26,740 nt of DNA from a virus (IMGVR_UViG_3300037264_003811:1-26740), one strand, 5' to 3'; shown: positions 1 to 24,406, numbered from the stretch's first letter. Numbers and translations are program-made. Notes: generated by a model not told the origin, from the letters alone.

Positions 1-1540
1 AGTTATTCTCAATAGCGATACTGTTAGAATTATATGTTATATTTCCATTATTAGAGTTACTCGCTATGTCTCCACCATTTAAGTTGTTTGATATTGCCCC
101 TCCATTATCATTGTTAACAATTCCTCCGGCATTAGAGTTATACGTAATATTAGTCACATTGCCTAAATTACCTGAAATATTGCCGTTGTTTGAGTTGCTT
201 ACTATCTGCCCGGTGTTGACGTTACTGGTGACATTCCCGCTATTGCTATTTCCGAATATAACAGTAACAGTAGTACCGTTTGCTACAATATTTCCAACAT
301 TAGAGTTGTTCTGTATAACTCCGATATTAATGTTGTCCGAAATATCATCTGTGTTGGAGTTTCTGCTGATCTCTTGTACTGGGTCAAGATTACCGCTTAT
401 ATCTCCGTTGTTGTTGTTTAGTAAGATATCCCCAAGATTAGTATTGTTAACAATTCCTCCGGCATTACTATTCTGTAATATTTCTCCTGTATTTGAGTTC
501 TCATTGATAACTCCTAAATTATCATTAGACTCAATATCCCCCGCATTTGAGTTCTCTTCAATGTTTCCTTTATTTGAATTACCTTCAATATTCCCATTGT
601 TGGAATTAGCAGATATGCTCCCAATATTACTATTCCCAGAAATCCCTCCGACGGAGAGAGTATTGTTAGATATACTCCCGATATTTGTATTACTGTGTAT
701 AGTTCCCTCTACAACATTATTATATATTCTACCCGGAATTATGTTGTCCCTAATCACCGCTCCTCCAACAGTATTGTTAGAAACCCCATAACAAACATTA
801 CCCAAAAATCCGTCAATAGAAATTATAGTTCCATAATTCCAATCAGAAATGTCTACAAGATTAGAAAGGCCGCCAAAATTATCTACGTGATAGGAAAAAT
901 TCACTCCAAAGACATTCCCCTTGCCGTCCCACTGCCGCTCAATCCAGCCATTTTCAAAGTCAAATGAAACACCAAATGTCATCTCTACATACTCTCCGTT
1001 ACTAAACGCTGCCTTAGAAACTAAATCCCACTCTCCATCTAATCCGGCATCATTATTAGGTGTTCCTACATTCCCATTAAGGTTTATCCACACTTGTCCG
1101 CCCCATATTGCTAAATCTCCAACGGCGGGAGTAAGCCCTGCATACCATACCCCAAGCCACACATTACCGTCTGAGATATCAGCAGTTCCATAGTAGGTAG
1201 GAACCAACATGAGTCTTGTGCCTTCTCTTGTGAAAGAGTTGGTATCTAATCCTCTAAGGAATACACCAAGATCACCTATTTCTGTGATTTTATACTCTTG
1301 GCCGGGAACTACTGTGTCTCCAGCTACTAAAGCCTGAGCTTCAGCATAGGTGAGTTCTTCTATACATGGACAACCACCCTCACTGCCGAATACTTCCCAA
1401 CTATCTCCATCCCAGTAATAAAATATCCCTGTATCTGGATTAAAAAGTACAACAGGGTCTCCTGCTCCAGGTGCATCAACAGGGGGAGATAGAGTAGTTA
1501 GCTCAAATTCACAGCAACAGCAATCTCTTTTATGTCCCAT
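1..1540 (-). CDS. Partial giant repeat fibre/adhesin, N-terminal 513 residues
   Basis: An open frame runs without a stop from the ATG at 1540 to the left edge, so the C-terminus is missing. The first residues are MGHKRDCCCC, a tag shared with the next gene upstream. Residues 35-50 (around LFNPDTGIFYYWDGDSW) and a stretch with GQEYKITEIGDLG resemble modules common in phage fibre N-termini. Trp- and Gly-rich beta segments follow to about residue 250. About 26 nonapeptide repeats (N-x-N-x-G-x-I-x-x) then reach the window edge. I infer an elongated virion appendage, such as a fibre or adhesin, whose repeats stack into a solenoid. The gene lies two bases after its tagged neighbour and has no Shine-Dalgarno site. 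The fibre role rests on composition, repeats and context; no receptor domain is visible. Confidence 0.85.
   Translation of the reverse strand, partial: MGHKRDCCCCEFELTTLSPPVDAPGAGDPVVLFNPDTGIFYYWDGDSWEVFGSEGGCPCIEELTYAEAQALVAGDTVVPGQEYKITEIGDLGVFLRGLDTNSFTREGTRLMLVPTYYGTADISDGNVWLGVWYAGLTPAVGDLAIWGGQVWINLNGNVGTPNNDAGLDGEWDLVSKAAFSNGEYVEMTFGVSFDFENGWIERQWDGKGNVFGVNFSYHVDNFGGLSNLVDISDWNYGTIISIDGFLGNVCYGVSNNTVGGAVIRDNIIPGRIYNNVVEGTIHSNTNIGSISNNTLSVGGISGNSNIGSISANSNNGNIEGNSNKGNIEENSNAGDIESNDNLGVINENSNTGEILQNSNAGGIVNNTNLGDILLNNNNGDISGNLDPVQEISRNSNTDDISDNINIGVIQNNSNVGNIVANGTTVTVIFGNSNSGNVTSNVNTGQIVSNSNNGNISGNLGNVTNITYNSNAGGIVNNDNGGAISNNLNGGDIASNSNNGNITYNSNSIAIENN
2..721 (-). repeat. Tandem nonapeptide-coding repeat, about 26 units
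   Basis: On the minus strand the frame encodes about 26 consecutive units of 9 residues, five of them 10. The consensus is N-[S/x]-N-x-G-x-I-x-x, for example NSNNGNIEG, NSNKGNIEE and NSNAGDIES. The 27-base period is preserved at protein level but the DNA copies have diverged, so this is an old coding repeat rather than a recent DNA expansion. The 10-residue units (such as NLDPVQEISR and NLGNVTNITY) lack the central Gly; units 13, 17 and 21 fall four apart. The regular Asn, Gly and Ile positions suggest a beta-solenoid or beta-roll. The array continues past base 1. Confidence 0.9.
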
Positions 1541-1542: not shown

Positions 1543-1914
1543 TTAAGGGTAGACTTTAATTGTTATATACGCCAGCCCACTAAAATCAACCGGGCTGCCA
1601 GCATTATCAAAAAAGTCTATTGCTATTCTATCAGAATCCAGCCAATATGCCACACAGCTGTAAGCGACCCCCCCTTGACCCAATGTTAGAAAAAATAGAA
1701 CTTTATATTGAGATGGAAATTGACCCGTAAGATTTCCAATATAGGCACCAAGTGATCCATATTCCCACACAAAACTCCCACTAAAATTATTTCTCAACTC
1801 TGTAGCAACTGGAGGAGATGCCGTGCCATCTTGTGTTAATATGGCCTCATAGATAAGAGGTTCATTTCCAGAAACTACCCCATCACAACAACAACAGTCT
1901 TTTTTATGTCCCAT
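1543..1914 (-). CDS. Small virion/fibre-associated beta protein with MGHKKDCCCC tag
   Basis: The 123-residue product starts at the ATG at 1914; a longer version would need a GTG at 1941. The ATG is preferred because MGHKKDCCCC then matches the N-terminus of the following gene. After the tag comes a beta-rich domain (YEAILTQDGTASPP, a central VWEYGSLGAYIGN, ending ITIKVYP). This pattern of an ILTQ-x-GT opening, a W-x-Y-x(3)-G-x-Y core and an IKVYP end recurs in small appendage proteins of Bacteroidota phages, but I know no named family. The start overlaps the upstream dioxygenase gene by 11 bases, so the two are probably translationally coupled. A virion location is inferred from context. Confidence 0.75.
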   Translation of the reverse strand: MGHKKDCCCCDGVVSGNEPLIYEAILTQDGTASPPVATELRNNFSGSFVWEYGSLGAYIGNLTGQFPSQYKVLFFLTLGQGGVAYSCVAYWLDSDRIAIDFFDNAGSPVDFSGLAYITIKVYP

Positions 1915-2518
1915 TTTGAAAATACCTATAAATTCGTTCACTCATTCTAATCAGAGGGTCATCTTTAGTTCTACCTATTTTCTCATAAGGAACACCAAAA
2001 CCAAAACTTAACAACACTCTGCGAGAATTAAAAGGTAATGCCCAGTGTTTGTACAAAGAGGCTTCAAACGTATATAAGTCTCCCTCTTCTATATCCCACA
2101 CTTCCTCCCCTACAAACAATTTATAGGATTCTGAAATAACTGGAGTATTGGCTTTTACATTTATATATCCGGGGTAAGCTGTATCGTAGTGTGGCTTAAT
2201 TTCCCCTCCAGTGGATTGATCTATGATTTGTAGGAATATGTTTTCTTTGAATCCTGTTAAATCACTAATCCTCTGAAGTATGTCAAATACCGATGATGGA
2301 AGTTCTTCAGTTCTTAAATTCCCATCACTTTGAAAAGTAGACAGGTAAGTTGAAACCTCCGTCTTAGAGATATCCCACATATGGGCAACTCCCTTTAATC
2401 CTTCTGCTACAGTCTTAATGTGTATATTTTCGACAGTGGAACCCTTTAGACCACTAATAAATTCAAGAATCTTACCTCTTTCTTCGGGGGTTATTGTTTT
2501 ACAAGCCTTAATCCCCAT
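1904..2518 (-). CDS. Fe(II)/2-oxoglutarate-dependent dioxygenase, protein-hydroxylase-like
   Basis: The 204-residue protein has the 2OG-Fe(II) oxygenase signature: an HxD pair (H110, D112, in KPHYD), a distal His (H158, in YKHW) and an Arg (R166 or R167, in NSRRVLLSFGF) suited to binding the 2OG carboxylate. Around these lie the expected double-stranded beta-helix strands, and WDIEEGDLYTF sits where the family has its G-D turn before the distal His. The layout is closer to prolyl or Asp/Asn hydroxylases than to AlkB. The N-terminal 90 residues look helical and are unassigned. The gene overlaps both neighbours and sits directly before two tagged appendage proteins, so hydroxylation of a virion protein is a reasonable inference. 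No substrate can be read from the sequence. Confidence 0.8.
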   Translation of the reverse strand: MGIKACKTITPEERGKILEFISGLKGSTVENIHIKTVAEGLKGVAHMWDISKTEVSTYLSTFQSDGNLRTEELPSSVFDILQRISDLTGFKENIFLQIIDQSTGGEIKPHYDTAYPGYINVKANTPVISESYKLFVGEEVWDIEEGDLYTFEASLYKHWALPFNSRRVLLSFGFGVPYEKIGRTKDDPLIRMSERIYRYFQNGT

Positions 2519-2790
2519 TTGTGTAGTATTTGAAGAATACTTGTATTTTCCTCAATTGTGGTGAGTTTTTGAAGTGCTTTCCATTTAGCTAACCTTTTCT
2601 CGGATACAGGTGAAATACATGCAGCATGTGTGGCTGGGGATTTCCCAGTTGCACTCAAATCTAAGGATAGAGCTTTGGGGTCACCAATCTTCTTACGAAC
2701 AGCTTCCCTGTCTTCTATATTTGCCAATACACCTACAATCTTACTTCTTGTTGCTTCCTTATCTTTTGGGAATATACTTGCAAGTTCCAT
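2491..2790 (-). CDS. Small basic helical protein of unknown function
   Basis: The 99-residue protein starts with ATG 19 bases after the 737-residue structural gene and overlaps the dioxygenase gene by 28 bases. It is Lys/Arg/Glu-rich and predicted mostly helical, with a patch SPATHAACISP in the middle. No signal peptide, membrane segment or recognised domain is visible. Its place between a large virion protein and a dioxygenase suggests an accessory to one of them. The long overlap with the next gene lowers confidence in its exact extent, but the frame is open and the spacing is typical of this operon. Confidence 0.6.
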   Translation of the reverse strand: MELASIFPKDKEATRSKIVGVLANIEDREAVRKKIGDPKALSLDLSATGKSPATHAACISPVSEKRLAKWKALQKLTTIEENTSILQILHKWGLRLVKQ

Positions 2791-2809
2791 AGTTTAATAT
2801 TTTTATAGG

Positions 2810-5023
2810 TTATGATACCAATGGTGTTGGTGGACACTGTTTATCAAATGTCAGAGTTTCAAGCACTGTTTCTCCATCTCTAACTTCAATGGTAAGAACT
2901 GTGGGTATATCACAGGCAATGATCACAAATTGCCAATCAATTTCGCTAATTGAAACTACTGATGCTAAAGTCACAGTTGATCCAGCAAAAACTGTTGCTA
3001 CAGCAGTTTCAAATGCAGCTTGGAGAGTAGCTTCTAGATCTCCTGTATCACCTAAAAGTATGTTATTGAAATAAATATCACCATCCTCAGTAGTTACTTG
3101 TGAAACATAATCACACTGCTCACAACATCCTGCTGAAGGAATAAATGGTAAAAATAACGGTGCGTTGACACCATCAGATAAGGCTATTATCCAGATGACA
3201 ACTTCAGCCTCTAAATCAAGAAATGAATAGAAATAAGGGTCAGTTGTACAAATGGTAATTGTTACATCTCCTGTGAGTGATCCAGTAACAGTGAGATTAG
3301 AAAATGTAACTCCTTGATTTATAAGAAACGAATATATCAAAGCATATAACTCAGATAGAGTAGAAGCAGCAACTAACCCAAGGCTATTCATAATATTTTT
3401 ACCAACAATAACGATGTCACCACTTTCACCAGTCCATTGTGCCCAATCTGGAATAGTTACACTCCAAGTACATCCACATTCTTCACAAGAGTTATCGAAA
3501 TAAATTCTATCTAATTTACCTGCTGCTCCATCCCCCTCATGTACTATGTGAAAGAGATCTCCTTCCAATATACTATCTGGAAGTCTACAGCCCGTAAATT
3601 GGAAGATAATAGGACTACCTGTTGGGTCTACAAATGCCCCAGCTATTACTGAAACAGTAGGAAGGGGAAGTCCTAAAGACGTATAGATTGGAAAAAGTAG
3701 TGCGAGAAGGTTTGCCTCAATAAGTGCCTGTTGACCTATACTTGCATCATAAGTTCCAATGGGGTCACCAAAGAAGAACAGATCGTCATCAACTAATGCA
3801 CTCTCTATTACTGCTGTATAAACACACTCTTCACAAGGACAATATGCTTGGAAAGTTGCACACTCTCCTGAACTTATAAGCTCAGAACTAAAATCTTCCT
3901 CATCAATGGCCCTGAAAATAGACCATTGGATATAAAAAACGTCATTGGGATCAATTACATTATTGTAATGGGAATCAATTTCTCCTGTAGCTGCACAAAT
4001 AGTAATTGTTACATCTCCAAAGGGATCATCAACAGTAATATTCACTGTTGCTGCTGCACCAGTTCCTCCAACAAGAGCAAGGGCAGCTAAATCAAAAGGG
4101 CTATAATCTGTACCGGGTACATTTAGAACCAACCCAGTGATTTCACCTGCACCACCTATAGTTGTAACTTCTACAATTGCATCATCATTCCCTCCAGTAA
4201 TAGTAAGTAAATCACCAACAGTATACCCTGTACCCGCAGCATTGATAACAGCTGTCAAAACTGCACCTACTCCTACTCCCGTCCCTGTTACGGTTACTGA
4301 ATTATACGTTATATTGTCAAGATTAAGTAAACCTTCTATTTCAGCCTGAACAGCATCTAAGGTATTCTCTGTTAAAAATATAGTAATACCCTCAGTACCT
4401 ACGAGAACAATATTACCGGCAGGATAATCAACAAAGTTCTCAATAGTAATCCAATGTGTTTCTACATCACAACCTGTACATCCCGTAACAGTAGAATCTA
4501 CTCTCCTAATTTGGTTATCTGTAAGAAGTTTACAGCCAGTAATTAAAAATTGCAGTCCAAATTGTGTCTCTATAATGTTGGTACTGGTGAGCTGGTAGGC
4601 TGGAATTCCTTCAGCAGCATAAACTGCTTGTACAGCAGCATTAAAATTATTCCTCAGAGGTGTAATTCCACCACTCCAAAGTCCAAGAGATGTAGCATTA
4701 AAAAAGAATTCATCTGTATCATTGTACTCTGGAAAAACTACCATTTGGGTACAGTCTTCACAGGTAGGGACATCTGAACATTCACAATCACAGGATACAA
4801 ATACTGGATTTTCTACAAGGGTACCATCAGCAAGCTCTACTCTATTGACTGTAGTACCATCTGCAGTAACACATAAGATTAGATATGCATTAATACATTC
4901 CTCCGGGTTAATAGGATCTGATATACAAACATCTCTTATAACAAAGGAAGAACCAGAGTTGGATTGACTTATTGCTGTACGAAGTGCCCTTGTAAGTTCT
5001 TTTGGTGAAAGTTGTGCTCCCAT
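2810..5023 (-). CDS. Large modular Cys-rich virion protein with alternating CxxC-bounded domains
   Basis: The 737-residue protein has a short N-terminal segment (1-87, including CDCEC at 78-82) and then five modules, each opening with a CxxC: CEDC 88-91, CTGC 182-185, CEEC 397-400, CEECGC 513-518 and CCEQC 633-637. Two module types alternate A-B-A-B-A. Type A carries an FFFN/FFFG/YFNN core and usually an ITGC or FTGC end. Type B carries NIVLVG or DIVIVG and ends in DVTITIC. The first B module has an extra insert at about 245-333 with GTGYTVGD and GTDYS, a motif seen in phage tail and baseplate proteins. The ATG follows the upstream stop codon directly. I infer a structural appendage or tail protein; the exact part is unknown. 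Confidence 0.8.
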   Translation of the reverse strand: MGAQLSPKELTRALRTAISQSNSGSSFVIRDVCISDPINPEECINAYLILCVTADGTTVNRVELADGTLVENPVFVSCDCECSDVPTCEDCTQMVVFPEYNDTDEFFFNATSLGLWSGGITPLRNNFNAAVQAVYAAEGIPAYQLTSTNIIETQFGLQFLITGCKLLTDNQIRRVDSTVTGCTGCDVETHWITIENFVDYPAGNIVLVGTEGITIFLTENTLDAVQAEIEGLLNLDNITYNSVTVTGTGVGVGAVLTAVINAAGTGYTVGDLLTITGGNDDAIVEVTTIGGAGEITGLVLNVPGTDYSPFDLAALALVGGTGAAATVNITVDDPFGDVTITICAATGEIDSHYNNVIDPNDVFYIQWSIFRAIDEEDFSSELISSGECATFQAYCPCEECVYTAVIESALVDDDLFFFGDPIGTYDASIGQQALIEANLLALLFPIYTSLGLPLPTVSVIAGAFVDPTGSPIIFQFTGCRLPDSILEGDLFHIVHEGDGAAGKLDRIYFDNSCEECGCTWSVTIPDWAQWTGESGDIVIVGKNIMNSLGLVAASTLSELYALIYSFLINQGVTFSNLTVTGSLTGDVTITICTTDPYFYSFLDLEAEVVIWIIALSDGVNAPLFLPFIPSAGCCEQCDYVSQVTTEDGDIYFNNILLGDTGDLEATLQAAFETAVATVFAGSTVTLASVVSISEIDWQFVIIACDIPTVLTIEVRDGETVLETLTFDKQCPPTPLVS

Positions 5024-5527
5024 TTAGGAATTTAATTTAGAATCTCTGAAAACTATAGAATATCTAAGATTGGGAACTGGTAAGATTGCATGTTTCCAAT
5101 CCCACCTAGATTCTCCTGAAAGTTGAAGAAGACTTTTACTTGGAATTAAAATGTTTGTTTTATCTGGGGTTTTGGTTAAAACCATGTTTGCATCTGATAA
5201 AAGAGAAACTATAGAAATAATAGGTCCACTTTGTTCATTATCTATATGGGCAGATATAGAATCCCCTTTTTGATATTCATTAATTGTAATGTGATCTGGT
5301 CTAGATTTTAGGTATTTATGTTCCACTAATCTATCTAAGAGAAAATTCAAGTATTCCGGTAAATTAGCTGATACAACTTTATTTCCATAGACCTTAGCTC
5401 CGTATCTCCAAATTGAACTTCTACCGGATTTACGTGACTTTTTAGGAGAAACTGGAAGTTTGGAAACTATAAGCTCTTCTTCCTCCCGTGTTATAAAATC
5501 TTCAACAAATTTAAGTCCAGATACCAC
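5024..5527 (-). CDS. AlkB-like Fe(II)/2-oxoglutarate dioxygenase
   Basis: The 167-residue protein carries the AlkB pattern in order: NEYQKGDSISAHIDNE with Fe ligands H94 and D96, an SGESRWDWKH segment with distal H146, and RYSIVFR with R155 and R161, matching the RxNxxFR-type element of AlkB. The N-terminal GLKFVEDFIT resembles the nucleotide-recognition region of the family. At 167 residues it is shorter than E. coli AlkB (216). Family members oxidatively demethylate alkylated bases in DNA or RNA, and some relatives act on proteins. The start is GTG, 12 bases after the upstream stop; the first internal ATG would remove the HxD. It lies between two large virion genes, an odd place for a repair enzyme, so a role on virion proteins or packaged DNA is possible. 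Confidence 0.85.
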   Translation of the reverse strand: MVSGLKFVEDFITREEEELIVSKLPVSPKKSRKSGRSSIWRYGAKVYGNKVVSANLPEYLNFLLDRLVEHKYLKSRPDHITINEYQKGDSISAHIDNEQSGPIISIVSLLSDANMVLTKTPDKTNILIPSKSLLQLSGESRWDWKHAILPVPNLRYSIVFRDSKLNS

Positions 5528-5538: not shown

Positions 5539-7128
5539 TTAAATAATAATAATTGGTTCTTGTGTTATAACAACATTGAAATTAATATGCGTAGTTGGCC
5601 CTTCTCCAATATGAGAACCCCCCTGTGTAATTCTGAAAAAATATCCACGATCCTCATCAGCAATAGGTGCAATAAGTCGTCTCCAACCTATGTACTCTCC
5701 CGCAAAAGTTTCGTATTCTGTATTGTACTCATCTTGGAGTGACAAATAACCAGCTGCAAGTCCTGGTACAAAGGCAGCTGCACTATATGTCCACAATGGT
5801 GTTCCCCCAGATTCATTATGTGTAATTACCTCAATGTTGAAACCAGTATCTGAAAACCCAGCATATCCATCAATTGTAAATTTGGTTAAATGCGAGTTCA
5901 CCATGGATTCATAAAATGCAAATCCAGCATTAAAATCTACTGCATATGATGTGTGATCAACTGTAGGAGCTAACGTAATTTCTACCTGCCCCACCCATCG
6001 TCTTGCAGTCTGATAATATTCATTAGTTGCAATAGTTGTAACATCTGCTACAATAACCTCTGTATCTGCTGGAGTCCTAACTCCATCATCATCAACAGAT
6101 GTTCCAGATATTGTAATATCTGCTGTTCCTGTACCACCAGATGCCGTACCTGCAGCTGCTGCAACAATAAACACATGTGCTCCATACGCCCCATTTGTTG
6201 TACCAATTGTAGTATCATCATCCCCTTGGTTCAGATTATAATCTGTTGCCGCTGCTTGATAATATCCTCCTGCATAAAACTGCCCTGCAAGTCCCTGTCC
6301 CAAATGACTATATGACCGTTCAACTATCTTTGCTGCTTGTTCAATGGGGTCAATCCAGTTCCCATCTTGATTTAGAAACAGGTCAGGAGAAGCCCCCTCC
6401 CCACCAATTCCAAGACAATCATCTACTTCTGCACAAAGTTCTACTTCTATAACTTCAGAACCAGCAGTAACCCCCAATAGATATGGAGGATTACTTTGAA
6501 TTAATGCACCGGCACCATAACCTGATAGTCGTACTTGTCCTGTTGCACCATTGATAAAGAAATTCTCAAAAAGTGTTGTACCAAGTCCACTTGGCAAATA
6601 TATTGCATAAGTACCTATAGGATCTGTTGCTGTAACATCGGACAATACCACATCCAGATTACATGCTGCTACTGGTGTACCAGCACTACCATCAACAAAA
6701 TATTCTGCTCTTACACCTATTCCGGCAGCAGGAGCAGCAGAGGATTCCCTTTGAACACGTAATGCGGGAAGTACAGTGTTAGTAGAAGCAGCAGTAACAG
6801 CACCCGTTATAGCGACTCCACCTCCAGCATTGTTGTGACTTGTAAATGTAGAAGAAGCATCCGTTCCAACAAGAGTAAATGCACTTACATTATTAATTGT
6901 AGTATCAAAACTTGCTTGATTATGGGTTCTGTTTGCATTTTGAACAAGATTGTCCTCGAAGAAGTTAGTATCAGTTGCTGCTGTAGATGTTATATCTATA
7001 GTACCTGCAACACTTGCATCAAGTGCAACAGTTCCATCTGAAGATGTAAGCTCTACAACATCATTATAGGTTACTTCAAAGTCATTGACTCCATCAGAGA
7101 GAGTAAATTTTTGAATAAGATGTGACAT
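5539..7128 (-). CDS. Probable virion fibre or appendage protein, beta-rich
   Basis: The 529-residue protein is rich in Thr, Ala, Gly, Asp and Asn with few Lys, typical of trimeric phage fibres. The N-terminal region (1-60) has short strands (KFTLSDGVNDFEVTYNDVV) that may be the anchor. The middle (60-260) looks like repeated beta turns, and the C-terminal 230 residues form a likely beta-sandwich with WVGQVEITLAP and IDGYAGFSDTGFNIEV. A short helical EQAAKIVERSYSHL near residue 270 could be a hinge. It shares one base with the upstream peptidase stop (TAATG), so translation is probably coupled. Receptor binding is inferred; no named domain is recognised. Confidence 0.7.
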   Translation of the reverse strand: MSHLIQKFTLSDGVNDFEVTYNDVVELTSSDGTVALDASVAGTIDITSTAATDTNFFEDNLVQNANRTHNQASFDTTINNVSAFTLVGTDASSTFTSHNNAGGGVAITGAVTAASTNTVLPALRVQRESSAAPAAGIGVRAEYFVDGSAGTPVAACNLDVVLSDVTATDPIGTYAIYLPSGLGTTLFENFFINGATGQVRLSGYGAGALIQSNPPYLLGVTAGSEVIEVELCAEVDDCLGIGGEGASPDLFLNQDGNWIDPIEQAAKIVERSYSHLGQGLAGQFYAGGYYQAAATDYNLNQGDDDTTIGTTNGAYGAHVFIVAAAAGTASGGTGTADITISGTSVDDDGVRTPADTEVIVADVTTIATNEYYQTARRWVGQVEITLAPTVDHTSYAVDFNAGFAFYESMVNSHLTKFTIDGYAGFSDTGFNIEVITHNESGGTPLWTYSAAAFVPGLAAGYLSLQDEYNTEYETFAGEYIGWRRLIAPIADEDRGYFFRITQGGSHIGEGPTTHINFNVVITQEPIIII

Positions 7129-7835
7129 TAAATTCTAGTATAAACGGTTACATTATTAATCTTAGAAGCTCTGTAGGTATTTTTCTTTTTATTATCTTCT
7201 GGATTTAGTGAGTATGCTACATGTATCCAGTTTGGGACATTAATTCCAAATTCCCAAATTAAGACATAATACTCTAAATTGTTCTTTATGTGGTTAAATA
7301 ACTCAAGGTTAGTAGGTCCATTTGGAGATCCATCTTGGTCTATATCTATTGCACAAATATTACCAAGGACCATATGATGACTTGTTGGAGATCCACCAAC
7401 TTTTGTATTAAGTTCTTTAGATCTAAAAAATGACGATATATGTATTGGTTTATTAAAATAAGATCTAAGAGGATCAAAGAACTTAGTTCCAGCATTCCTC
7501 ATTATTGATAATTGTCTATCATCAGGAATGTTAGAAACATTGTGAGAGGTTCTTACTGATTCAATATAGCTGATGTACTTGGATATACGATAAGGTCTTT
7601 TTGGTTTATCATTTCCAGTACTTCCTGAGGACTGATTCCCTTCAAAATTGCGCAGTCCTCCAAGGTTGGGTATAGAATCTGTTCCCCACTTAGAGTAGTT
7701 TCCAAAATGGGAGAATTGTATAAAAGCATATTCTCTTCCATATTGTAACTCTCTGGAGTAGGAACTTCCTGATGTAGAGAACGTCCAAAGGAGGACAATA
7801 ATACTACTAAGAACACGACCGATCCTATAATCCAT
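7128..7835 (-). CDS. M15-type zinc peptidase (peptidoglycan hydrolase), signal-bearing
   Basis: The M15 domain occupies about residues 82-210 of 235. It has RISKYISYIESVRTS at its start, FDPLRSYFNKPIHISSFFRS, VGGSPTSHHM, AIDID and NWIHVAY. Likely zinc ligands are H153 or H154, D164 and H205. The spacing from the first His to Asp is longer than the usual HxxGxAxD, by about three residues. M15 enzymes cut D-Ala-containing or L-Ala-D-Glu peptide bonds in peptidoglycan, so this is either the endolysin or a virion-borne wall hydrolase. In this frame the N-terminus (VLSSIIVLLW) is signal-like, followed by a poorly structured linker. A second open frame overlaps the first 94 codons, and the two may really be one gene (see next entry). 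Confidence 0.75.
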   Translation of the reverse strand: MDYRIGRVLSSIIVLLWTFSTSGSSYSRELQYGREYAFIQFSHFGNYSKWGTDSIPNLGGLRNFEGNQSSGSTGNDKPKRPYRISKYISYIESVRTSHNVSNIPDDRQLSIMRNAGTKFFDPLRSYFNKPIHISSFFRSKELNTKVGGSPTSHHMVLGNICAIDIDQDGSPNGPTNLELFNHIKNNLEYYVLIWEFGINVPNWIHVAYSLNPEDNKKKNTYRASKINNVTVYTRI

Positions 7836-7867
7836 TTCATTATTAAAACTAAGGTATTGGACAACAT
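7553..7867 (-). CDS. Overlapping signal-bearing frame upstream of the M15 domain
   Basis: This 104-codon frame starts with ATG three bases after the preceding stop, matching the tight packing here. A second ATG at 7840 gives MKWIIGSVVFLVVLLSSFGR, a good signal peptide or membrane anchor. It overlaps the first 94 codons of the M15 frame. It could be a separate small exported protein, a shadow, or the true N-terminus of the peptidase. One extra A in the A5 run (T5 at 7598-7602 on the plus strand) would join it to the M15 domain exactly at RPYRISKYISY. Third positions favour the M15 frame slightly (by eye about 31% versus 41% G+C), so I cannot decide. Confidence 0.4.
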   Translation of the reverse strand: MLSNTLVLIMKWIIGSVVFLVVLLSSFGRSLHQEVPTPESYNMEENMLLYNSPILETTLSGEQILYPTLEDCAILKGISPQEVLEMINQKDLIVYPSTSAILNQ

Positions 7868-9760: not shown

Positions 9761-10651
9761 CTAGTTATATGAAAAACCAGGACAATCCGTTGTAATGCTT
9801 GGACCTCCAAGAACATCAACCACAATTGTAATTGGTTCTAATGCATTTATCTGTACATGATCAATTGTTACATCAATTTTAAAGGTTAAACCCACAATAG
9901 ACGTTGTAACACCTATAGGAGCAACTCCATTCGCAATCAACAACGCCTCAACGTTTGCTGATAATGTAGACAGTAGAGAACCTCCATTCACACCAGGACT
10001 ACGGATTTCGTAGGGTCCACCAACAACAGGTGTAGAAGCAACTAATATGCTTTCTGTTCCTAGGTTAGTAAGATTTCCAGCACCCCAAGCACCTACGGAT
10101 GTAGATACACCGTAGTCGGTATTATTACCAAAGAGCTTAGAAGTAACTGTCATAGTACCATCTACCCCATCAACTGCTGTTACATGAGCATTAATTGTAG
10201 TAGCTGCACCATAAGTCGTCCCAGCAATACCTGTGAGATTAATGGCATTAACAAGATTTCCTACAGAAATAGTATCTGTTCCACCAACATCAACTTCATC
10301 AGCAGCAACTGGAGAGTCCTTAAAAGTATATACCCTACCATTTATAGTAACAGTATCGTTGTCTTCAATACCACCTCCATCAGAATCATAAACTCCAACA
10401 GACCGATAGGCAGGATTGGGAAGAACATAACTAACTACACAGAATGATTCAACAGTAGATGGATCAGCATCTACTACAAGAACACCATTTTGAACTGTAA
10501 TCCTAACACAACTTTCAGTAACCTGATCATAGAAAGTTAGACCGCACTTTGATAGCTCAAAAATAGCATCAGCAAGAGAATTAAAACCTACTCTTTTACT
10601 ACCAACTACCTTCCATAGACCTCCAGATTCTACATGTACTTTATTAGCCAT
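9761..10651 (-). CDS. Structural virion protein with DTVTINGRVYTF-type domain
   Basis: The 296-residue protein has an N-terminal region (1-85, with GGLWKVVGSKRVGFNSL) and a central domain (about 95-185) with DTVTINGRVYTFKDSP and a following SVGNLVNAIN. That arrangement, a T-x-NG-x-x-Y-T-F strand and a helix with NL-x-x-AIN, is common in phage tail and other virion proteins. The C-terminal 100 residues contain an ISTLSANVEAL-like helix and beta strands. It is the first gene after a strong terminator, so it may begin a separately expressed fibre module. A tail or appendage component is likely; the exact place is unknown. Confidence 0.72.
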   Translation of the reverse strand: MANKVHVESGGLWKVVGSKRVGFNSLADAIFELSKCGLTFYDQVTESCVRITVQNGVLVVDADPSTVESFCVVSYVLPNPAYRSVGVYDSDGGGIEDNDTVTINGRVYTFKDSPVAADEVDVGGTDTISVGNLVNAINLTGIAGTTYGAATTINAHVTAVDGVDGTMTVTSKLFGNNTDYGVSTSVGAWGAGNLTNLGTESILVASTPVVGGPYEIRSPGVNGGSLLSTLSANVEALLIANGVAPIGVTTSIVGLTFKIDVTIDHVQINALEPITIVVDVLGGPSITTDCPGFSYN

Positions 10652-10680
10652 TATATGAGAATTTATTAATATACTAACAG

Positions 10681-10706
10681 GAAAAATAAGGGGAGAAATC
10701 TCCCCT
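10681..10706 (-). terminator. Intrinsic terminator after the 543-residue virion gene
   Basis: On the minus strand the sequence reads AGGGGAGA-TT-TCTCCCCT followed by TATTTTTCC: an 8-bp GC-rich inverted repeat (in practice 6-7 bp with a 4-base loop) and a U-rich tail. It lies in the 66-base gap downstream of the 543-residue gene and upstream of the 296-residue gene. It probably ends or attenuates transcription of the head block. Confidence 0.75.
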
Positions 10707-10717
10707 ATATATTAGCC

Positions 10718-12349
10718 TTAGTCAACGCAATATAGAATCACTTTATTTGGACAATGACTAGAAAGCAGGTATGGATTGATAATTGCCTCAAACTCAGACT
10801 GAGTTACACTATCATCAAAAGGAATCAAAACTATAGTCCTACCCCTGTTTCCATATACATTACCTTGAACACTAATATCAGCATTAGGAAGTACATGTTC
10901 TATAGAGTACACACAATAGGACTCTGCACAGACAATGCCTAAATGACCTTCTGTACCTCTACTACCAGCTAAAGGAGAACCCCATCTACCGTGAGGATCC
11001 CATCCCCAAGGATTATAGTCTCTTCCCATTCCACCAACACTCTGGTTAGCGGCTCTTACTTGCCATTCATATCCAAATCCTTCTGGAATGGTAGCAACTT
11101 GAACTCTATTAATATGGAAGCTTCCACAAGTAAAACCTGAGTCTTGACCTATATTAACACCTAGTTTTCTGGAGAACCATCCTCTAGGGGTATCAGGAGA
11201 GGTATAGCAATTGCAGAAGATATCAACTGGTTTAGCCACTAGTCTAAGTCCACAGGTTGGAGTAGTTGTAGTAGGTGTAGAACAACCTTTACATGTTCCT
11301 TCTGTGATAATGTCTTCAAAAGGAGAACCTTCAACACAAGGCTCAAGTGGGGTTGATACTTCACCATCATCATCAAACAACTCAATAGGAACACAGGAGT
11401 TAATTCTCAGCTGATAGTCACAACAAGGAGCACCTGAGCCATTCAATCCTCTGGTAATTACAGCAGATCCTACTGAGCCATTTGCCTCAAATGCAGCATT
11501 AATAAGCTGAACAATTCTAGGAAGTCTAGAGATCAAGGAAAGTCTCTCTGCACCAACAACTGATACAGTATTAGTGAAATTTACAGTAATTTCGTCTTCA
11601 TCACCCGCATTAATAGTAATACCATTAATGGCTTCAACATAGTTACAATTATCACAGGTATCCGCGACAGCATCAATTGTACTAAGACAAAAGATATAAT
11701 CATTCGCATACAAAGGGTAGGCATAAAATGGCTGAGTAGCCACTGATCTATTTCTTGCTCTTTGGAGAAACTGACCACTAGTCAGGGCATTACCTGTATT
11801 CTTCCCATTAATTTGGTCTGCTAAAAGGCAGAAAAGAGCCTGGCAATCTACACCATCTGTACAGGAATCACAGGCACAACAACCAGCATTTACTGAGAAG
11901 GTATAAACAGCTGGACGGTTATAGGGGTATTGGTTCTGAGTTAGATCATCTTCTACTGTAATATTAAGTGAATAATCTTCATCACACCTAATACAGCTAG
12001 CTGAGATATCCAAAACATCTACCAATCCACAAACTGGGGGTTTTACGTTAGCACCACTAATGTTACACCCATAGATCTTATCCCCAAATGGCCCTCTAAG
12101 GGTATCTGCAAGCCCATCTCCATTAAGGTCAACTCCTTGAGCAATAACTATCTTATCTGCTGTAAGAATAGTTTCTCCAGGAGATAGTGAGACATTGGTG
12201 TCATAGTTATAAATAACTAGTTGATTAGCAAGGACCCCATTTAGAGTAGGTGGTCCTGAGGCATCAAACAGATACACCGCTGTACCTGCAGGAAACAGAC
12301 TCTGATTACCAGAGGATGCAAGAATGTTTTCTCGAACAATGTTTGGCAT
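10718..12349 (-). CDS. Cys-rich major virion structural protein, head or neck
   Basis: The 543-residue protein contains 27 cysteines. The N-terminal 95 residues carry AGTAVYLFDASG and KIVIAQGVDLNGDGLADTLR, a pattern I associate with virion proteins of large Bacteroidota phages. CxxC clusters start at CIRC (119-122), CCACDSC (157-163) and CDNC (232-235). The CDNC module, with CCDYQLRINSC near residue 310-319, resembles the type A modules of the 737-residue protein. The last 170 residues include a Gly/Trp-rich stretch (GRDYNPWGWDPHGRWGSP). It follows the MCP and two connector-like genes and is followed by a terminator. An auxiliary capsid, tail or neck role is possible; I cannot choose. Confidence 0.7.
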   Translation of the reverse strand: MPNIVRENILASSGNQSLFPAGTAVYLFDASGPPTLNGVLANQLVIYNYDTNVSLSPGETILTADKIVIAQGVDLNGDGLADTLRGPFGDKIYGCNISGANVKPPVCGLVDVLDISASCIRCDEDYSLNITVEDDLTQNQYPYNRPAVYTFSVNAGCCACDSCTDGVDCQALFCLLADQINGKNTGNALTSGQFLQRARNRSVATQPFYAYPLYANDYIFCLSTIDAVADTCDNCNYVEAINGITINAGDEDEITVNFTNTVSVVGAERLSLISRLPRIVQLINAAFEANGSVGSAVITRGLNGSGAPCCDYQLRINSCVPIELFDDDGEVSTPLEPCVEGSPFEDIITEGTCKGCSTPTTTTPTCGLRLVAKPVDIFCNCYTSPDTPRGWFSRKLGVNIGQDSGFTCGSFHINRVQVATIPEGFGYEWQVRAANQSVGGMGRDYNPWGWDPHGRWGSPLAGSRGTEGHLGIVCAESYCVYSIEHVLPNADISVQGNVYGNRGRTIVLIPFDDSVTQSEFEAIINPYLLSSHCPNKVILYCVD

Positions 12350-12407
12350 TAGAAAAGAATTTAATAAATTAAGTTAGTATAGTTAGTATTATTAGAGTTA
12401 ATTTAGT
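12350..12407 (-). other. G-poor leader of the 543-residue gene
   Basis: The 58-base gap reads, on the minus strand, as an A/C/T sequence with almost no G (repeats of TAACT and CTAAC). No Shine-Dalgarno site or hairpin is visible. Such an unstructured leader suits initiation in Bacteroidota, where Shine-Dalgarno pairing is weakly used. No promoter match is clear. Confidence 0.5.
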
Positions 12408-13130
12408 CTAGTTCAAAAATGCCTTCTCTGTAAAGAGAATTTCATTTTGCTTAGTTTGGTAATCATCTATTTGACCGAGATCTCTGAGAGTAAGAAGAAC
12501 CGCAAGGTTTACTACCTTTCTCCACACATAGGTACTATCTATTAGAAAGTCTTGATCATCACATATACTCTCACCAGAACTGTTAACATAACACTTTGGA
12601 TCACAAGAGAGTAGACTAGGGGTAGCTATTTCTGGTATCTTTCTAATGTAGTCTAGAGTTACCGACTTAATATCAAAGTTGTCTCTGTAGACATAGAACC
12701 CCCCAACTCCCTCATCTGCAAATGTCTCTTCCCAGTTAAAACTGGGCTTCCAGTGGGGATTATAGAGAGCTTCTGAGAGATCGTCTGATTGAATTATATT
12801 AACTCTTAAATCTTTATCTCCACAACTGGGTTTTGACCCTACAGCCTGAAGTCTTACTCTTCTATAGTAATTAGAGGGAATAGCAGCTATTACGTGATCT
12901 GGTTTGGTCTCTGTTATCACTAATGGAATGTTTTTAAGCTCAATCTGCCTAAAATGATCCCGGACTGAGGGGTTAACCTCTATAATTACTGAATAATTCT
13001 CTTGAAGGATGTTAATAGCATGGTTCAAGTAACTATCTCTATCTACAACAGCTATAGCTTTATTGAAGTCTGAATTGACTCTATTGAGCTGTTTTCCATA
13101 TTCATAGCTCAGTTGTGTAGATTTTATCAT
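12408..13130 (-). CDS. Probable head-tail connector (ring/adaptor) protein
   Basis: The 240-residue protein starts with a helical region (1-75), continues with a beta-rich middle and ends in a helical segment (about 190-235) with TYVWRKVVNLAVLLTLRDLG and then QIDDYQTKQNEILF. A compact protein with a helical ending of this kind, placed shortly after the MCP, fits the gp4/gp11-like adaptor rings below the portal in podoviruses. Two CxxxC-like spots (SCDPKC, SICDD) recall the Cys-rich neighbours. The connector role comes from position and fold guess, not from a diagnostic motif. Confidence 0.6.
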   Translation of the reverse strand: MIKSTQLSYEYGKQLNRVNSDFNKAIAVVDRDSYLNHAINILQENYSVIIEVNPSVRDHFRQIELKNIPLVITETKPDHVIAAIPSNYYRRVRLQAVGSKPSCGDKDLRVNIIQSDDLSEALYNPHWKPSFNWEETFADEGVGGFYVYRDNFDIKSVTLDYIRKIPEIATPSLLSCDPKCYVNSSGESICDDQDFLIDSTYVWRKVVNLAVLLTLRDLGQIDDYQTKQNEILFTEKAFLN

Positions 13131-13147
13131 GAGAGTTAATCATTGCT

Positions 13148-14113
13148 CTAGCCATTACTCTTAATCAGGTGTTCTAGTCTGATGATCATTTCTTGATTTT
13201 GAGGATCTGAGAGATAATCATAAATTCCTGCTTCATGCCTAGAGACTACATTTCCAAATAGCATCCACCCAGAATTTCTTTGATACTTCAGAGCTCCCGA
13301 CTTTTTACCCTTAGCAATAAGGGTTCTAAGTTCAAGTTCTTCATTAGTAGTTCCACAGATGTGAATAAAGAAATCCTGTTTAGTAAGATTATCAGAAACT
13401 TTAGTAGTAGAGTCATTTAGATATGCCCACATGAGCTCATCAATCATAGTTCTATCTACATCAGTATCAGAGATCAGTTGTAGAGCTAGGGCTATCTTAG
13501 ACTTTTTAGCATCAGTAAGAGCATCATAGAGTTTGACCGCCTTAGTGGTCTGAGTTCTATTGTCCTTTTTGGCTTTAGAATCAATATTTTTATCTACTAT
13601 GACATATCTTACTCTAGTGGACATAAGAGGATTTATACTCTCTCCACCTGAGGAAAACTCAGATGATGCTTCAAGGCCCATCAAGAGAATCTTATCTAGA
13701 GGTCTTTCCTTATCAAGGACAGCTTCTCCTTCTTTCTGGATGAATTTTACCTCATCATGGATGAAGAAAGGATCTCTTCTATCATAAACATCTGCAGTTT
13801 CAATATAATGTCCTGCCCTAATATGACCTTCTGGATACTTGACCTTACAACCTTTAACTAGTTTATCTAGTTCTGTCTGAAGGTCTGAAGTTACTTTTTC
13901 ATAACCCTTAAGTCTCCACATTCTCTTAGATTCGCTCCACTTAATTCTAGAAATCTGTCTAGAACTAGGAAATCTTTCTCTCTTGTACTCCCCGGTTTCT
14001 TTAAATCCTTCTTTATCTCCAGACTTAATCATGGAGAATTGGGACATTACTCCCTCAATTGCAGTAAATTTTCTGCTCCCTTTTCTGGGTCTGATTGTTA
14101 CTAATTCTGACAT
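13148..14113 (-). CDS. Conserved-position protein after the MCP, function unknown
   Basis: The 321-residue protein has a basic N-terminus (TIRPRKGSRKF; RRE/K-rich to about residue 75), a middle with HYIETADVYDRRDPFF, and a mostly helical C-terminal half (DALTDAKKSKIALALQLI; DFFIHICGTTNEELELRTL). No membrane segment or signal is present. The basic N-terminus could contact DNA or the acidic scaffold. It starts 19 bases after the MCP stop, so it is probably co-expressed with the capsid. I do not recognise a family; head completion or neck assembly is the natural guess from its place. Confidence 0.65.
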   Translation of the reverse strand: MSELVTIRPRKGSRKFTAIEGVMSQFSMIKSGDKEGFKETGEYKRERFPSSRQISRIKWSESKRMWRLKGYEKVTSDLQTELDKLVKGCKVKYPEGHIRAGHYIETADVYDRRDPFFIHDEVKFIQKEGEAVLDKERPLDKILLMGLEASSEFSSGGESINPLMSTRVRYVIVDKNIDSKAKKDNRTQTTKAVKLYDALTDAKKSKIALALQLISDTDVDRTMIDELMWAYLNDSTTKVSDNLTKQDFFIHICGTTNEELELRTLIAKGKKSGALKYQRNSGWMLFGNVVSRHEAGIYDYLSDPQNQEMIIRLEHLIKSNG

Positions 14114-14132
14114 TTGTTATGATTGTTTTATT

Positions 14133-15683
14133 CTAGAGGGTTACCGCGGGCTTAAACCAGGCGGTTAGGCTGACGTCCTTAACTCTAATGCCAAAGGTAT
14201 CAGCTGCATAAAGAATATAAGATCTATTGGGACCTGTACATGGGAAGGCTCCACCACCACCTCTGCCATTGTTAATTGGGCCCATAGGTGACCAAGTTCC
14301 ACATTCATAAGTAAATACTTCTGAATCTGCTCTCTTAAGAAGTTCGATATTAGAACCAGTTCCATTTCCGAGGCCATGATCTAATACAATAAACTCATAA
14401 GAAGTAAGTGGAAGGCCAGTAGATGGGTGCAAGAGAGACCCATTAAGGTAAGTAGAGTCTAAAATAGACCAATGTTCTACCCTAACTGAACCAAAAGGCT
14501 GAATATTATACTTGGTAAACTGAGCTGTTTGGAACTCATACCCATTATAGTTCTTGGGATCAAAAGCTTTTGTTGTCCCTACAAATCTATTAAAGTCAGC
14601 TACAACAGCAGAAGTAGAGAACTTCTTAGCAATCCAGTCATTCCAAAGTTTCAGACCACCCTGACCTGTGTAGATAACTATATTTCTTTGATCTGGGGGA
14701 ACTCTATCAAACCATACTGCCTGAAGGAATTCTACAAACATATCAATAGAACCACCTTCTACAGGATAATCAATTACATTACCATCTTCAAGAAACTCAA
14801 GTAGACCGGGTCCACCCCTTCTATGATAAGATGAAGTTTCATCAGTCTTAGTTCTACCAATATCTCTACCATAGTAGAGCATCAGTTCTTTTTCCCACTT
14901 AGCTTGACGCAGGAACTCTGCCTCAATCCAAGAAATAAGCTGAGCTGGATAATCTGTCATCAAGGCTCCCTTAGCATCACAGGCTTGAAGTTTTAGGTTA
15001 AGTTGGTGAGCTTTATTTGTGACTTCCACATGCTTACCCCAATCAGTTAGGCTAGATTGAAACTCAATATAGGACATACCCATAAACTGAGTTGACCCGT
15101 AACCTCTAGAAGCTTCTCCATATACAGCTCCCAACTTGATCCATCTAAGATTAGACTCTAAGAGCTCAGGAGGGAAGAATGAGCTGGGGTCTTTGTCTGC
15201 TAGGACTACCGGGTAGATAAACCCTGAACCATGAGATCCTGGAAGTTCTTCCACAATAACAGAGGCTTCCTTGGCAACGTCAGGGGCTATAATATCACCA
15301 ACTACAAAAGATTCAAGATCTAGTTTAACATTAAATCTAGTACCATGTACCCCAGGAGCGGCTACACCAGGATGTTGGTTTTCATAGGAAACTGCCTGGA
15401 CTTCCCCAGTACCTCGAAGTTTCCACCTTACATAGTCAGTATCAATAGTTCTTACCCTACCTGAACCTTGAAGCCAGTTCTGCAGAGAAGTTCTCCCAGT
15501 TTCAAGAGAGGGAGCATGGGTTGAGATGTACTGAATTACCGGATCTGTGAGGTCAATCCAAGGTTTTACAAATTGATGAGTATGTAAGAGAACATTCTCA
15601 TCGGCATAATTTGCCCAATATTTGTCTCTCTTAGTAGACTCCTCATAGATCTTAAATTTAGATACGCCCTGAGTAGGTCTCAT
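14133..15683 (-). CDS. Major capsid protein, HK97-fold type
   Basis: The 516-residue protein has the size, composition and position of an MCP: after TerL, portal and a scaffold candidate. The N-terminal 60 residues form a charged arm, and YVRWKLRGTGEV (84-95) leads into the likely E-loop. Helical and beta parts of the P and A domains follow, with a long helix around IEAEFLRQAKWEKELMLYYG (253-272) and VEFLQAVWFDRVP near 317. IVIYTGQGGLKLWNDW (335-350) is a turn commonly seen in crAss-type MCPs. The gene ends with TAG and the next begins 20 bases on, so TAG is a stop here. No protease domain is visible. The family call is from overall resemblance. Confidence 0.85.
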   Translation of the reverse strand: MRPTQGVSKFKIYEESTKRDKYWANYADENVLLHTHQFVKPWIDLTDPVIQYISTHAPSLETGRTSLQNWLQGSGRVRTIDTDYVRWKLRGTGEVQAVSYENQHPGVAAPGVHGTRFNVKLDLESFVVGDIIAPDVAKEASVIVEELPGSHGSGFIYPVVLADKDPSSFFPPELLESNLRWIKLGAVYGEASRGYGSTQFMGMSYIEFQSSLTDWGKHVEVTNKAHQLNLKLQACDAKGALMTDYPAQLISWIEAEFLRQAKWEKELMLYYGRDIGRTKTDETSSYHRRGGPGLLEFLEDGNVIDYPVEGGSIDMFVEFLQAVWFDRVPPDQRNIVIYTGQGGLKLWNDWIAKKFSTSAVVADFNRFVGTTKAFDPKNYNGYEFQTAQFTKYNIQPFGSVRVEHWSILDSTYLNGSLLHPSTGLPLTSYEFIVLDHGLGNGTGSNIELLKRADSEVFTYECGTWSPMGPINNGRGGGGAFPCTGPNRSYILYAADTFGIRVKDVSLTAWFKPAVTL

Positions 15684-16969: not shown

Positions 16970-19558
16970 TTATTTCTTTTTAGGAGAAGCAGGTCTAGGA
17001 ACTGGTTTATTGGCTACAATCTTTTTAACCTTAACTTCATCTTCTGACACTTTAAGCTCATCCTTATGTTTCTTGAGTTCTAGATCTCTATCCTTTTGTC
17101 TCTCTCTAGCTTCATGGTTGAGTTTAAAAATCTCAAACTGTAACTGTTCCCTTTTAGCCTGGAGATCATCATCAATGCTGTTCATATCAATATCTTGTTG
17201 TTGAGCAAACCTACTAGACTCAATCTTAGCTATTAAGAGCTGATTCTGATGCTCCCTATTTTGCTTTTCTAGGTCTGCTTGGGTGGCTAGATTAGCAAGT
17301 TCCTTCTGCATCTGAGCCTGCATTTGGAGCATTTCTTGTTCTTTTCTAGATTGTTCTTCTCTTAGTTTCTGGTTCTTTTCCTCAGCCTGTTCTGCTATGT
17401 TTAGTACATCAGCTCCTGAACTAGCCCATTGGAGCTTGATTAGTTCAGGAAAACTAATAAGGCCATTTTGAATCATGGCTTGGCCTAGTTCTTTGACTTT
17501 TTGGATATTGTTAAAGTCTTTAGAAGAATTTCTGATCTTAATTCCTAACTCAGCCTGGTCTAGAACCTCCCAATCTACTTCTAGGTCAGCTATACTCATA
17601 TCATCCAGGAGATAGGTACGGGAGAAATCATTGTCTCTAAAGGCATTTCTACATGCTTTGACCATGATGTTTAGTACATTTTCCACTATCTTATTATGGG
17701 TAGAGAAGATATCTTCAGTCTGGTAAGAGGACTGAACTATGTTCTGTTGGTTGTTAGTAACAGCAGTGTAGGCTCCTACTTGTCCTAATCTTGAGGGATT
17801 GTAGGACATAGAAATAGCAACTTGGTTTCTAAGAAATTCAAGATACTGGAGTTTACCTGCTATGTCATTTATGGTAGAAAGGTCAATTTGTTTTATAATT
17901 TGAGCATCAAATGGAGTGAAGTTTTCTTGGTTTGCATCTACTACTGCTATTTTGCCATACTTCATCATCATTAGAAATTTCTGCCAACTCCAGTCCTTGG
18001 GTTTGGCACCTTCGGCCCAGACAAGAATTTTCCCAATATCAGTGGCTTCCATTTCATGGATTCTAGCCATCTGGACATTAAACTTATATTGCCAGGGTTT
18101 ACCAAGATCAATAGGTGCTACATTCTCCGCATTACCAAAAAGTTTATTATACTCTGCTCCTACATAAGGAAGTTTAACAACCCAAGGATCATGAATAGAT
18201 CTATGGGCATACGGGATAGGACCTTTTTCTAGATAGATAGCATCTCCTACCCCAATCTTGGTACACTGATAAGGTTCTGGAATCCAAGCTATATCCTGCT
18301 TAAAATCTCCCTTGGTTTTATTAAAGACATATGACTCATCACACCAAAACTTTAAAACTTTCCCATTTTGATTTCTATGAACCCTCTTAAACTTTCTTAG
18401 AGACTTATAGACTATATGAGCTTTTCTAATTGAGTTATAAGAGTCAATATCTGAACCAAACCTTGAATAGAGAGATTTGATGTGATTTTGACCATCTATA
18501 GTTCTAATATCTGGAATATTGGACAGAACACCGGTTCTGGTATCATACTCTGCTATTTGAGAGACCATTCTTGGATCTAGTTCACCTACCCTTCCACCAC
18601 CTCCTACTGAGAAGACCTCAAACATTTGTTTAAGGTGTTTCTCCTTCATTAGATCCCCATACTGAGAGAAGAAGTCAGTGAACTTCATATACTGCTCATA
18701 TTTGGCCCACTCTCCATCTTCTATAAACATAGTGTTGGCAGAGCCTGAGTAGGAGAATCCCATAGAATTCACCAGCTCAATAACTGGTTTATCATGTCTA
18801 ACTCCTATATAGTAGATTTCTTCTCCAGTGATTAGGGCATGTTTAAAGCCCTGATCTGTTATGAATTTAATGTCATACTCATGAAGTAGGTAATCTAGAA
18901 GTTTCTGAGCTTGAAGTTCTGAAGGAGACTTATACTCATTTCTCATGAAATTTTCAATCTCCTTGGGAGTCTTAGACTTTACCTTCTGTTGGATCTCTGA
19001 GTTTAGATCTTGTTGCTCCTCTGGTTTAAGAGAGTAGGGGTCTTGGACTCCATGTCTCATCATTACCTCTAAAGTAATCTGTTCTAGGGTTGGCCCAATA
19101 ATAGTCTCCTGAATATGGGATTGAAGGAGCTCTAATCTCTTCTTTTTTCTAAAGTTAACCCCATAGCCAGAAGCATCAATAGCCATAGGATTAAGGGGCC
19201 GCATTTGCTGTTCCCCTACTAGACTCTTGGCTATTTGATCTATAACAGAGTGATGTCTTACATTATCCTCTATGAAGATTTCTTCATCTTCATCAGGGAT
19301 GTGCATACTTGAATAGTGAGACATTGCCTCTTCACCCCTGCCATTGTAGAGATTGTAGTTTAGTTTTAGTCTTTCTATTCTCTTTTTAGAGTAGTGAGAT
19401 CCATGATAGTAGTCATAGTAGTCTGCACAGTTCTCTACCCACTCAAAGTCATTAGCTTTCTTTTTATCCCAAGAAAGTCTCTGAATTGGAAGCCTTGGGC
19501 CAGTCCAGAACTTATCAGAACCATAGTCTTTAGAGTACTTCGAGAATTTAGAATGCAT
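16970..19558 (-). CDS. Portal protein
   Basis: The 862-residue product begins at the ATG at 19558 (a longer version would need TTG at 19603). The ATG overlaps the TerL end by 11 bases. Portal-type features: an N-terminal region with FEWVENCADYYDYY, an Asn/Tyr-rich LNYNLYNGRG segment, SLVGEQQMRPL (about 113-122; a G-E-x(3)-R-P pattern typical of crAss-like and P22-like portals), long helices with SMSYNPSRLGQVG..., and a C-terminal Lys/Glu/Gln-rich coiled coil (about 700-840) like the barrel of long portals. The size and position directly after TerL support it. It would form the 12-fold ring through which DNA is packaged. Confidence 0.85.
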   Translation of the reverse strand: MHSKFSKYSKDYGSDKFWTGPRLPIQRLSWDKKKANDFEWVENCADYYDYYHGSHYSKKRIERLKLNYNLYNGRGEEAMSHYSSMHIPDEDEEIFIEDNVRHHSVIDQIAKSLVGEQQMRPLNPMAIDASGYGVNFRKKKRLELLQSHIQETIIGPTLEQITLEVMMRHGVQDPYSLKPEEQQDLNSEIQQKVKSKTPKEIENFMRNEYKSPSELQAQKLLDYLLHEYDIKFITDQGFKHALITGEEIYYIGVRHDKPVIELVNSMGFSYSGSANTMFIEDGEWAKYEQYMKFTDFFSQYGDLMKEKHLKQMFEVFSVGGGGRVGELDPRMVSQIAEYDTRTGVLSNIPDIRTIDGQNHIKSLYSRFGSDIDSYNSIRKAHIVYKSLRKFKRVHRNQNGKVLKFWCDESYVFNKTKGDFKQDIAWIPEPYQCTKIGVGDAIYLEKGPIPYAHRSIHDPWVVKLPYVGAEYNKLFGNAENVAPIDLGKPWQYKFNVQMARIHEMEATDIGKILVWAEGAKPKDWSWQKFLMMMKYGKIAVVDANQENFTPFDAQIIKQIDLSTINDIAGKLQYLEFLRNQVAISMSYNPSRLGQVGAYTAVTNNQQNIVQSSYQTEDIFSTHNKIVENVLNIMVKACRNAFRDNDFSRTYLLDDMSIADLEVDWEVLDQAELGIKIRNSSKDFNNIQKVKELGQAMIQNGLISFPELIKLQWASSGADVLNIAEQAEEKNQKLREEQSRKEQEMLQMQAQMQKELANLATQADLEKQNREHQNQLLIAKIESSRFAQQQDIDMNSIDDDLQAKREQLQFEIFKLNHEARERQKDRDLELKKHKDELKVSEDEVKVKKIVANKPVPRPASPKKK

Positions 19559-24049: not shown

Positions 24050-24406
24050 CTATTTTGACAATCTTCTAATTAGTAAAAACTTAACACCAAATTGGGATTT
24101 ATAGTTCTCCCACTCTTCTTCAGTCATAAATTCTCCCCAGTTACCAGCAGTACATTCATCGGTTCTGTTCCATATCTTTTCTGGAATCAGGCACTTGCAG
24201 GGTTCAGTACAAACCCCATCCCGTACACACTGGGCACAGGCAAGGAGTCTGAAGTGGTACTGTTCTATCTCATGAATCTCTGGTGTCCAGTCAGATCCAT
24301 CTAACCACTTAAGATATCTTCTTAATAGGTAGATGTAAACTGCCCTCCACCTAGAGGGATAGAAATAGTATTTAGCCTGAGATATAAGTGTTCTTAATTT
24401 GTTCAT
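24050..24406 (-). CDS. Small Cys-cluster protein, unknown
   Basis: The 118-residue protein has a basic aromatic N-terminal half (YYFYPSRWRAVYIYLLRRYL) and a Cys cluster (CAQCVRDGVCTEPCKC, then DECTAGNWG) that may bind a metal ion. The final GEFMTEEEWENYK segment is typical of a conserved small-protein tail in Bacteroidota phages, although I cannot name it. The first 35 bases overlap the end of the GroES-like gene. A membrane-peripheral or zinc-ribbon role is possible. Confidence 0.6.
   Translation of the reverse strand: MNKLRTLISQAKYYFYPSRWRAVYIYLLRRYLKWLDGSDWTPEIHEIEQYHFRLLACAQCVRDGVCTEPCKCLIPEKIWNRTDECTAGNWGEFMTEEEWENYKSQFGVKFLLIRRLSK

Follow-up and report, generated by a model that had tools for sequence, protein, structure and literature searches.

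A two-gene Fe(II)/2-oxoglutarate oxygenase cassette that probably modifies phage fibres, and an unrelated AlkB-like protein in the same late operon

Phages encode a range of oxygenases that depend on Fe(II) and 2-oxoglutarate (2OG), for which DNA repair (PMC2984593) and, in cyanophages, nitrogen/2OG balance (PMC3037559) have been proposed as roles. S-SCSM1 carries 24 2OG oxygenases whose functions were left uninvestigated; the cyanophage enzymes fall into PF13640, PF13661, PF13759 and PF05721 and occur in T4-like phages (PMC9602691). A study of Baltic viruses described prolyl 4-hydroxylase (P4H) genes of cryptic use (PMC9301287). Here we analyse IMGVR_UViG_3300037264_003811, an entire viral record from IMG/VR, 26,740 bases long (the window), whose ends are therefore contig ends. 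It encodes a 204-aa oxygenase (1904-2518) and an AlkB-like protein (5024-5527). The original prediction of two different 2OG oxygenases within 3.6 kb holds; both open reading frames (ORFs) are intact at these coordinates on the minus strand. The 204-aa protein is likewise an Fe(II)/2OG enzyme, but unlike the cyanophage oxygenases it matches no Pfam family and sits in a fibre-side cassette. A search that left most subscription journals outside its reach found no published report of this fibre-linked pairing of an oxygenase with a small ORF. We give about an even chance to the reading that this late operon combines a mobile cassette, built on the 204-aa enzyme and modifying fibres, with an independently acquired divergent AlkB.

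The 204-aa protein (minus strand) represents an unnamed phage family with the motif residues H110-x-D112, H158 and R166/R167. PHROGs, Pfam, NCBIfam and the PDB sequences contain no significant match to it; searching viral contigs with one sequence at a time, whether that of one of the two oxygenases or that of the terminase large subunit (TerL), found nothing, and tblastn against 50,697 phage records gave no true relative. A weak Aeromonas match proved to be an unrelated protein. A weak local match led through a fragment alignment to a final viral scan with 136 relatives, from which 80 loci were kept (cited below by L numbers). Full-length homologues share 43-47% identity, and H110, D112, H158, R166 and R167 do not vary among 77 of them. 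AlphaFold2 with 37 sequences predicted a double-stranded beta-helix (predicted local distance difference test score, pLDDT, 87; predicted template modelling score 0.86); from the single sequence the pLDDT was only 37. When this model was compared with the PDB by Foldseek, AlkB/ABH2, PHD2 and P4H ranked first among 332 matches at E<=0.001, and VIA-align placed AlkB and the prolyl hydroxylases level, at Z scores of 12.4-13.6. Because the motif residues are invariant, the model is a double-stranded beta-helix and the fold finds these PDB matches, assignment of the protein to the Fe(II)/2OG oxygenase superfamily is well beyond chance; on the predicted structure it belongs there, as the original prediction had it.

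The likeness to prolyl 4-hydroxylase, PHD2 and AspH-type enzymes lies in the fold and the 2-His-1-Asp motif, and P4H is the best PDB profile match, although below significance. The 204-aa protein differs from these enzymes in resembling no curated family significantly by sequence, in being confined to phages here and in being tied to a small overlapping ORF. Against the aspartyl/asparaginyl beta-hydroxylase family PF05118, the L133 homologue scores E=0.11, under the curated cut-off. One homologue is already deposited without a name: A0A6J5NI56 in BFVD, from an uncultured Caudovirales phage and annotated only as uncharacterized, is 44% identical and superimposes on the model with a TM score of 0.91. 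A search of 395 Bacteroidota genomes, run without a positive control, returned no member of the family. An ORF in a TerL relative (L077, 4981-5523) has a 2OG-like WHDDH...H...R pattern and overlaps the portal stop codon; it led to the 204-aa family, yet the family profile does not match it, and it is therefore treated as a separate possible oxygenase.

The enzyme is rarely seen apart from its neighbour. In the window a 99-aa partner ORF (2491-2790, minus strand; profile E=1.9e-29) extends 28 nt into the start of the oxygenase gene. Of the 80 loci, 73 have a homologue of this partner as the gene immediately before the oxygenase, L142 has a copy with a broken frame and the other six contigs stop at this point, so that the partner is present in all 74 loci with upstream sequence. 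In the 73 loci the end-to-start spacing is an overlap, from -10 to -82 nt, a range that includes the 28 nt of the window. The L133 locus has a myovirus-type context, with a head-tail adaptor and with a sheath-like protein and a DNA polymerase gene that were named by reading of the sequences; set against the window, this places the pair in at least two unrelated phage types. We infer that the cassette has been exchanged between unrelated phages. In each of four near-complete records the 204-aa enzyme is a single copy, always within the cassette and by fibres.

The fibres beside the cassette tend to be rich in asparagine. The window protein at 1-1540 (minus strand; 513+ aa, cut by the contig end) is fibre-like, has a ladder-like Asn repeat reaching about 31% Asn over 120 aa and lies one gene from the oxygenase. 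Taking at least 22% Asn over 120 aa as the threshold, we found an Asn-rich protein in 60 of the 80 cassette loci (27/36 non-redundant), at a median distance of 254 bp, and in 0/80 control TerL loci of equal GC. The four near-complete records place the most Asn-rich of their 65-103 proteins 1.5-3.7 kb from the cassette; the chance of such placement is estimated at ~5% per genome, with shared ancestry lowering the independence of the four. A profile of the Asn-rich fibres did not match the window fibre significantly, so the likeness between the window fibre and the others rests on repeat type and composition. Between the ladder protein and the oxygenase stands a small adhesin-like gene (1543-1914, minus strand) that overlaps the oxygenase stop and matches a fibre-like protein of 385 aa over residues 275-358, in its C-terminal region (phmmer E=1.4e-7). 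Four loci that are nearly identical (L163, L164, L165 and L175) carry the gene for that 385-aa protein as the second gene upstream of the oxygenase. The adjacent proteins at 1-1540 (MGHKRDCCCC...) and 1543-1914 (MGHKKDCCCC...) have the N-terminus MGHK(K/R)DCCCC in common, and a protein of L094 (8753-9277) also has a Cys-rich CCCC stretch near its start. This stretch is possibly an anchoring or metal-binding tag.

Together the 204-aa enzyme and the ORF of ~90-100 aa would form a mobile cassette of two genes found at tail-fibre loci. The enzyme would hydroxylate side chains of the adjacent fibre during assembly, the Asn-ladder fibre being our best guess, and would be coupled in translation to the small overlapping ORF, which may be a co-translated partner or adaptor. 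Judged from gene neighbourhood, a fibre-modifying role is probable. Asn is favoured as the target because the cassette is linked to Asn-rich fibres, with Pro as the main alternative. A bolder form of this proposal seems unlikely to us: that a widespread, phage-only pair hydroxylates Asn in Asn-ladder fibres and moves, together with pieces of adhesins, among podovirus-like and myovirus-like phages, the late AlkB clade being likewise a hydroxylase of virion proteins.

Several observations weigh against a fibre-modifying cassette. Four loci (L138, L159, L160 and L167) have upstream sequence but no protein above the Asn threshold, and the fibres beside the cassette vary, some having Thr-Pro (TP) or Gly-X-Y repeats. 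The TerL controls come from a different genome region and another phage group, and the 60/80 count overstates independence because homologous loci share ancestry. The tie in Z score between AlkB and prolyl hydroxylases means that the fold gives no residue specificity. The fibre as substrate, the residue modified and the role of the partner are each steps that we infer, and the published proposals for phage 2OG oxygenases, DNA repair and nitrogen/2OG balance, point elsewhere.

The first of these proposals bears on both enzymes and calls for a closer look at the AlkB-like protein (167 aa, GTG start, minus strand, its stop abutting the following ATG). It matches PF13532 with E=2.9e-13 and 50.9 bits, above the curated cut-off of 31.2, and human ALKBH8 in the PDB with E=1.7e-15. 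H94-x-D96, H146 and R155-x5-R161 are invariant in an alignment of eight members, and the AlkB assignment made originally on these residues is upheld. With N83/Y85 the catalytic set is full. The protein differs from ALKBH8 in being a single domain, without the RNA recognition motif or methyltransferase domains, in its altered lid and in its position among phage late genes. Profile-guided scans recovered relatives in L090 and L092 (41% identity) and in L094 (50%), and in a maximum-likelihood tree these form one group with the window protein at 100/100 support on a long branch. The protein thus belongs to a divergent clade of phage AlkBs, and in the proposed reading it was acquired independently. 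The clade is without the lid motif LKRRxQHYGYKYDY and the loop preceding the last arginines, both of which are common to most replication-module and bacterial AlkBs; in 4/4 members a sequence of the type RSSIWRYGAKVYG replaces the nucleotide-recognition lid. This lid motif does not define the AlkB family, as the lid varies among AlkB proteins generally. A change of substrate in the clade is plausible from these features, and the target could be either nucleic acid, in repair, or protein. A classical-type AlkB is also encoded, unannotated, in the 595-kb genome of a megaphage (LR756511.1; L087).

That both enzymes are nucleic-acid demethylases or repair proteins that happen to be encoded among late genes, the kind of role put forward for the 2OG oxygenases of cyanophages, is the alternative that survives best, and we regard it as possible though doubtful. 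By sequence the AlkB-like protein is nearest to ALKBH8 and a DNA N6-methyladenine demethylase, and in fold comparison the 204-aa enzyme is as close to AlkB as to the prolyl hydroxylases. Other phage AlkBs, bacterial-like copies in L091 and L093, adjoin DNA ligase and DnaB/primase, and the clade member in L094 is two genes from a RuvB-like ATPase, in the order RuvB-like ATPase, thioredoxin-like gene, AlkB-like gene, protease genes. Against repair, wherever upstream sequence exists the 204-aa family occurs only as part of the fibre-side pair, and the window AlkB clade has neither the lid motif nor the loop seen in most replication-module and bacterial AlkBs. The clade members in L090 and L092 also lie between scaffold-like and capsid-like genes; L092 is from an unrelated phage, its scaffold-like protein matching PHROG 4866 at E=0.006 and its probable capsid gene being called from position and length.

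The original prediction went further and proposed that the two oxygenases form a shared virion-modification system. We dropped this idea, since no phage examined other than the window has both enzymes. No AlkB was found in the 44 records with the 204-aa enzyme or in the 44 TerL-related records searched, and the AlkB-clade records L090, L092 and L094 had no 204-aa homologue; many of the records are fragments. The conservation of linkage expected of such a system was found for the 204-aa enzyme with fibres in other phages, and not for the two enzymes together. The two oxygenases are of separate origin, each travelling alone.

If the cassette does act on fibres, proline may still be its target. 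The 204-aa enzyme would then be a prolyl 4-hydroxylase acting on (TP)n or collagen-like fibre segments, like the chlorovirus and algal enzymes, a possibility that we rate a little below nucleic-acid repair. The sole PDB sequence-profile matches are algal P4H, with the catalytic register kept, and they fall under significance (E=0.5); by fold, 3gze with (Ser-Pro)5 and 5c5t from a chlorovirus reach Z scores of 12.4-12.7. Pro-X repeat proteins occur in 29/80 cassette loci and 0/80 controls, and Gly-X-Y proteins in 18/80 and 2/80. Such repeats are limited in the window, however, to STPTTTTPT in a distant gene, and in whole-record checks TP proteins were not unique to the neighbourhood of the cassette. 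The 430-kb phage contig L097 encodes, directly downstream of the oxygenase (10307-15322), a pair of collagen-like Gly-X-Y proteins that contain Pro (GPVGATGPTG).

Fibre regions are known sites of gene exchange, and this counts for the weakest alternative, that the cassette is an auxiliary metabolic gene serving 2OG/nitrogen balance at a generic insertion hot-spot. That idea follows the published one for cyanophage 2OG oxygenases (PMC3037559) and appears improbable here, as a hot-spot would not retain one and the same overlapping partner ORF across all the phages, nor keep the cassette beside the most Asn-rich protein in 4/4 records.

The wider gene order supports most of the description of the region as a fibre module, in that the oxygenases belong to a late virion operon with an Asn repeat protein downstream of the 204-aa cluster. 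The recognisable window genes are all on the minus strand and run from terminase, portal, capsid and endolysin to late appendage-type genes at the contig end. TerL (19548-21911; PHROG 6681, E=2e-95) is 36% identical to that of Cellulophaga phage phi14:2 (Crassvirales, Steigviridae). The portal (16970-19603) and major capsid protein (14133-15683; PHROG 11589, E=8e-45) follow, the latter 29% identical to its counterpart in Flavobacterium phage FpV4, which agrees with the window in TerL-portal-capsid order and in two additional proteins. These matches in TerL, capsid and gene order indicate a distant crAss-like/Fipvunavirus-like phage, and the host is probably a member of the Bacteroidota. A protein at 24372-24962 (minus strand) looks by eye like a GroES-type co-chaperonin, and in phi14:2 a GroEL gene precedes the terminase gene.

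Closer to the oxygenases, the endolysin (7128-7835, minus strand) is a peptidase M15 (PF08291, E=2.6e-9; PHROG 894, E=1e-16). An ORF at 7553-7867 (minus strand) with a hydrophobic N-terminal stretch mostly overlaps it in a different frame, and could be an embedded lysis or spanin-like gene or a product of chance. The next gene (5539-7128, minus strand) encodes a 529-aa protein without family matches in PHROGs or Pfam, putatively a virion protein from its operon position upstream of the AlkB-like gene at a gap of 11 nt. Between the two oxygenase clusters lies a large repetitive late protein of 737 aa (2810-5023, minus strand), residues 217-334 of which match the head decoration family PHROG 9703 (E=4.4e-6). 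Pfam gave no match to it, and it is a probable virion or appendage protein.

Many phage 2OG oxygenases are without tested function, and the cassette offers a concrete candidate substrate that can be tested by mass spectrometry. Should our proposal prove correct, tail fibres would be modified by hydroxylation through an enzyme family traded among unrelated phages, with a bearing on adsorption and host range.

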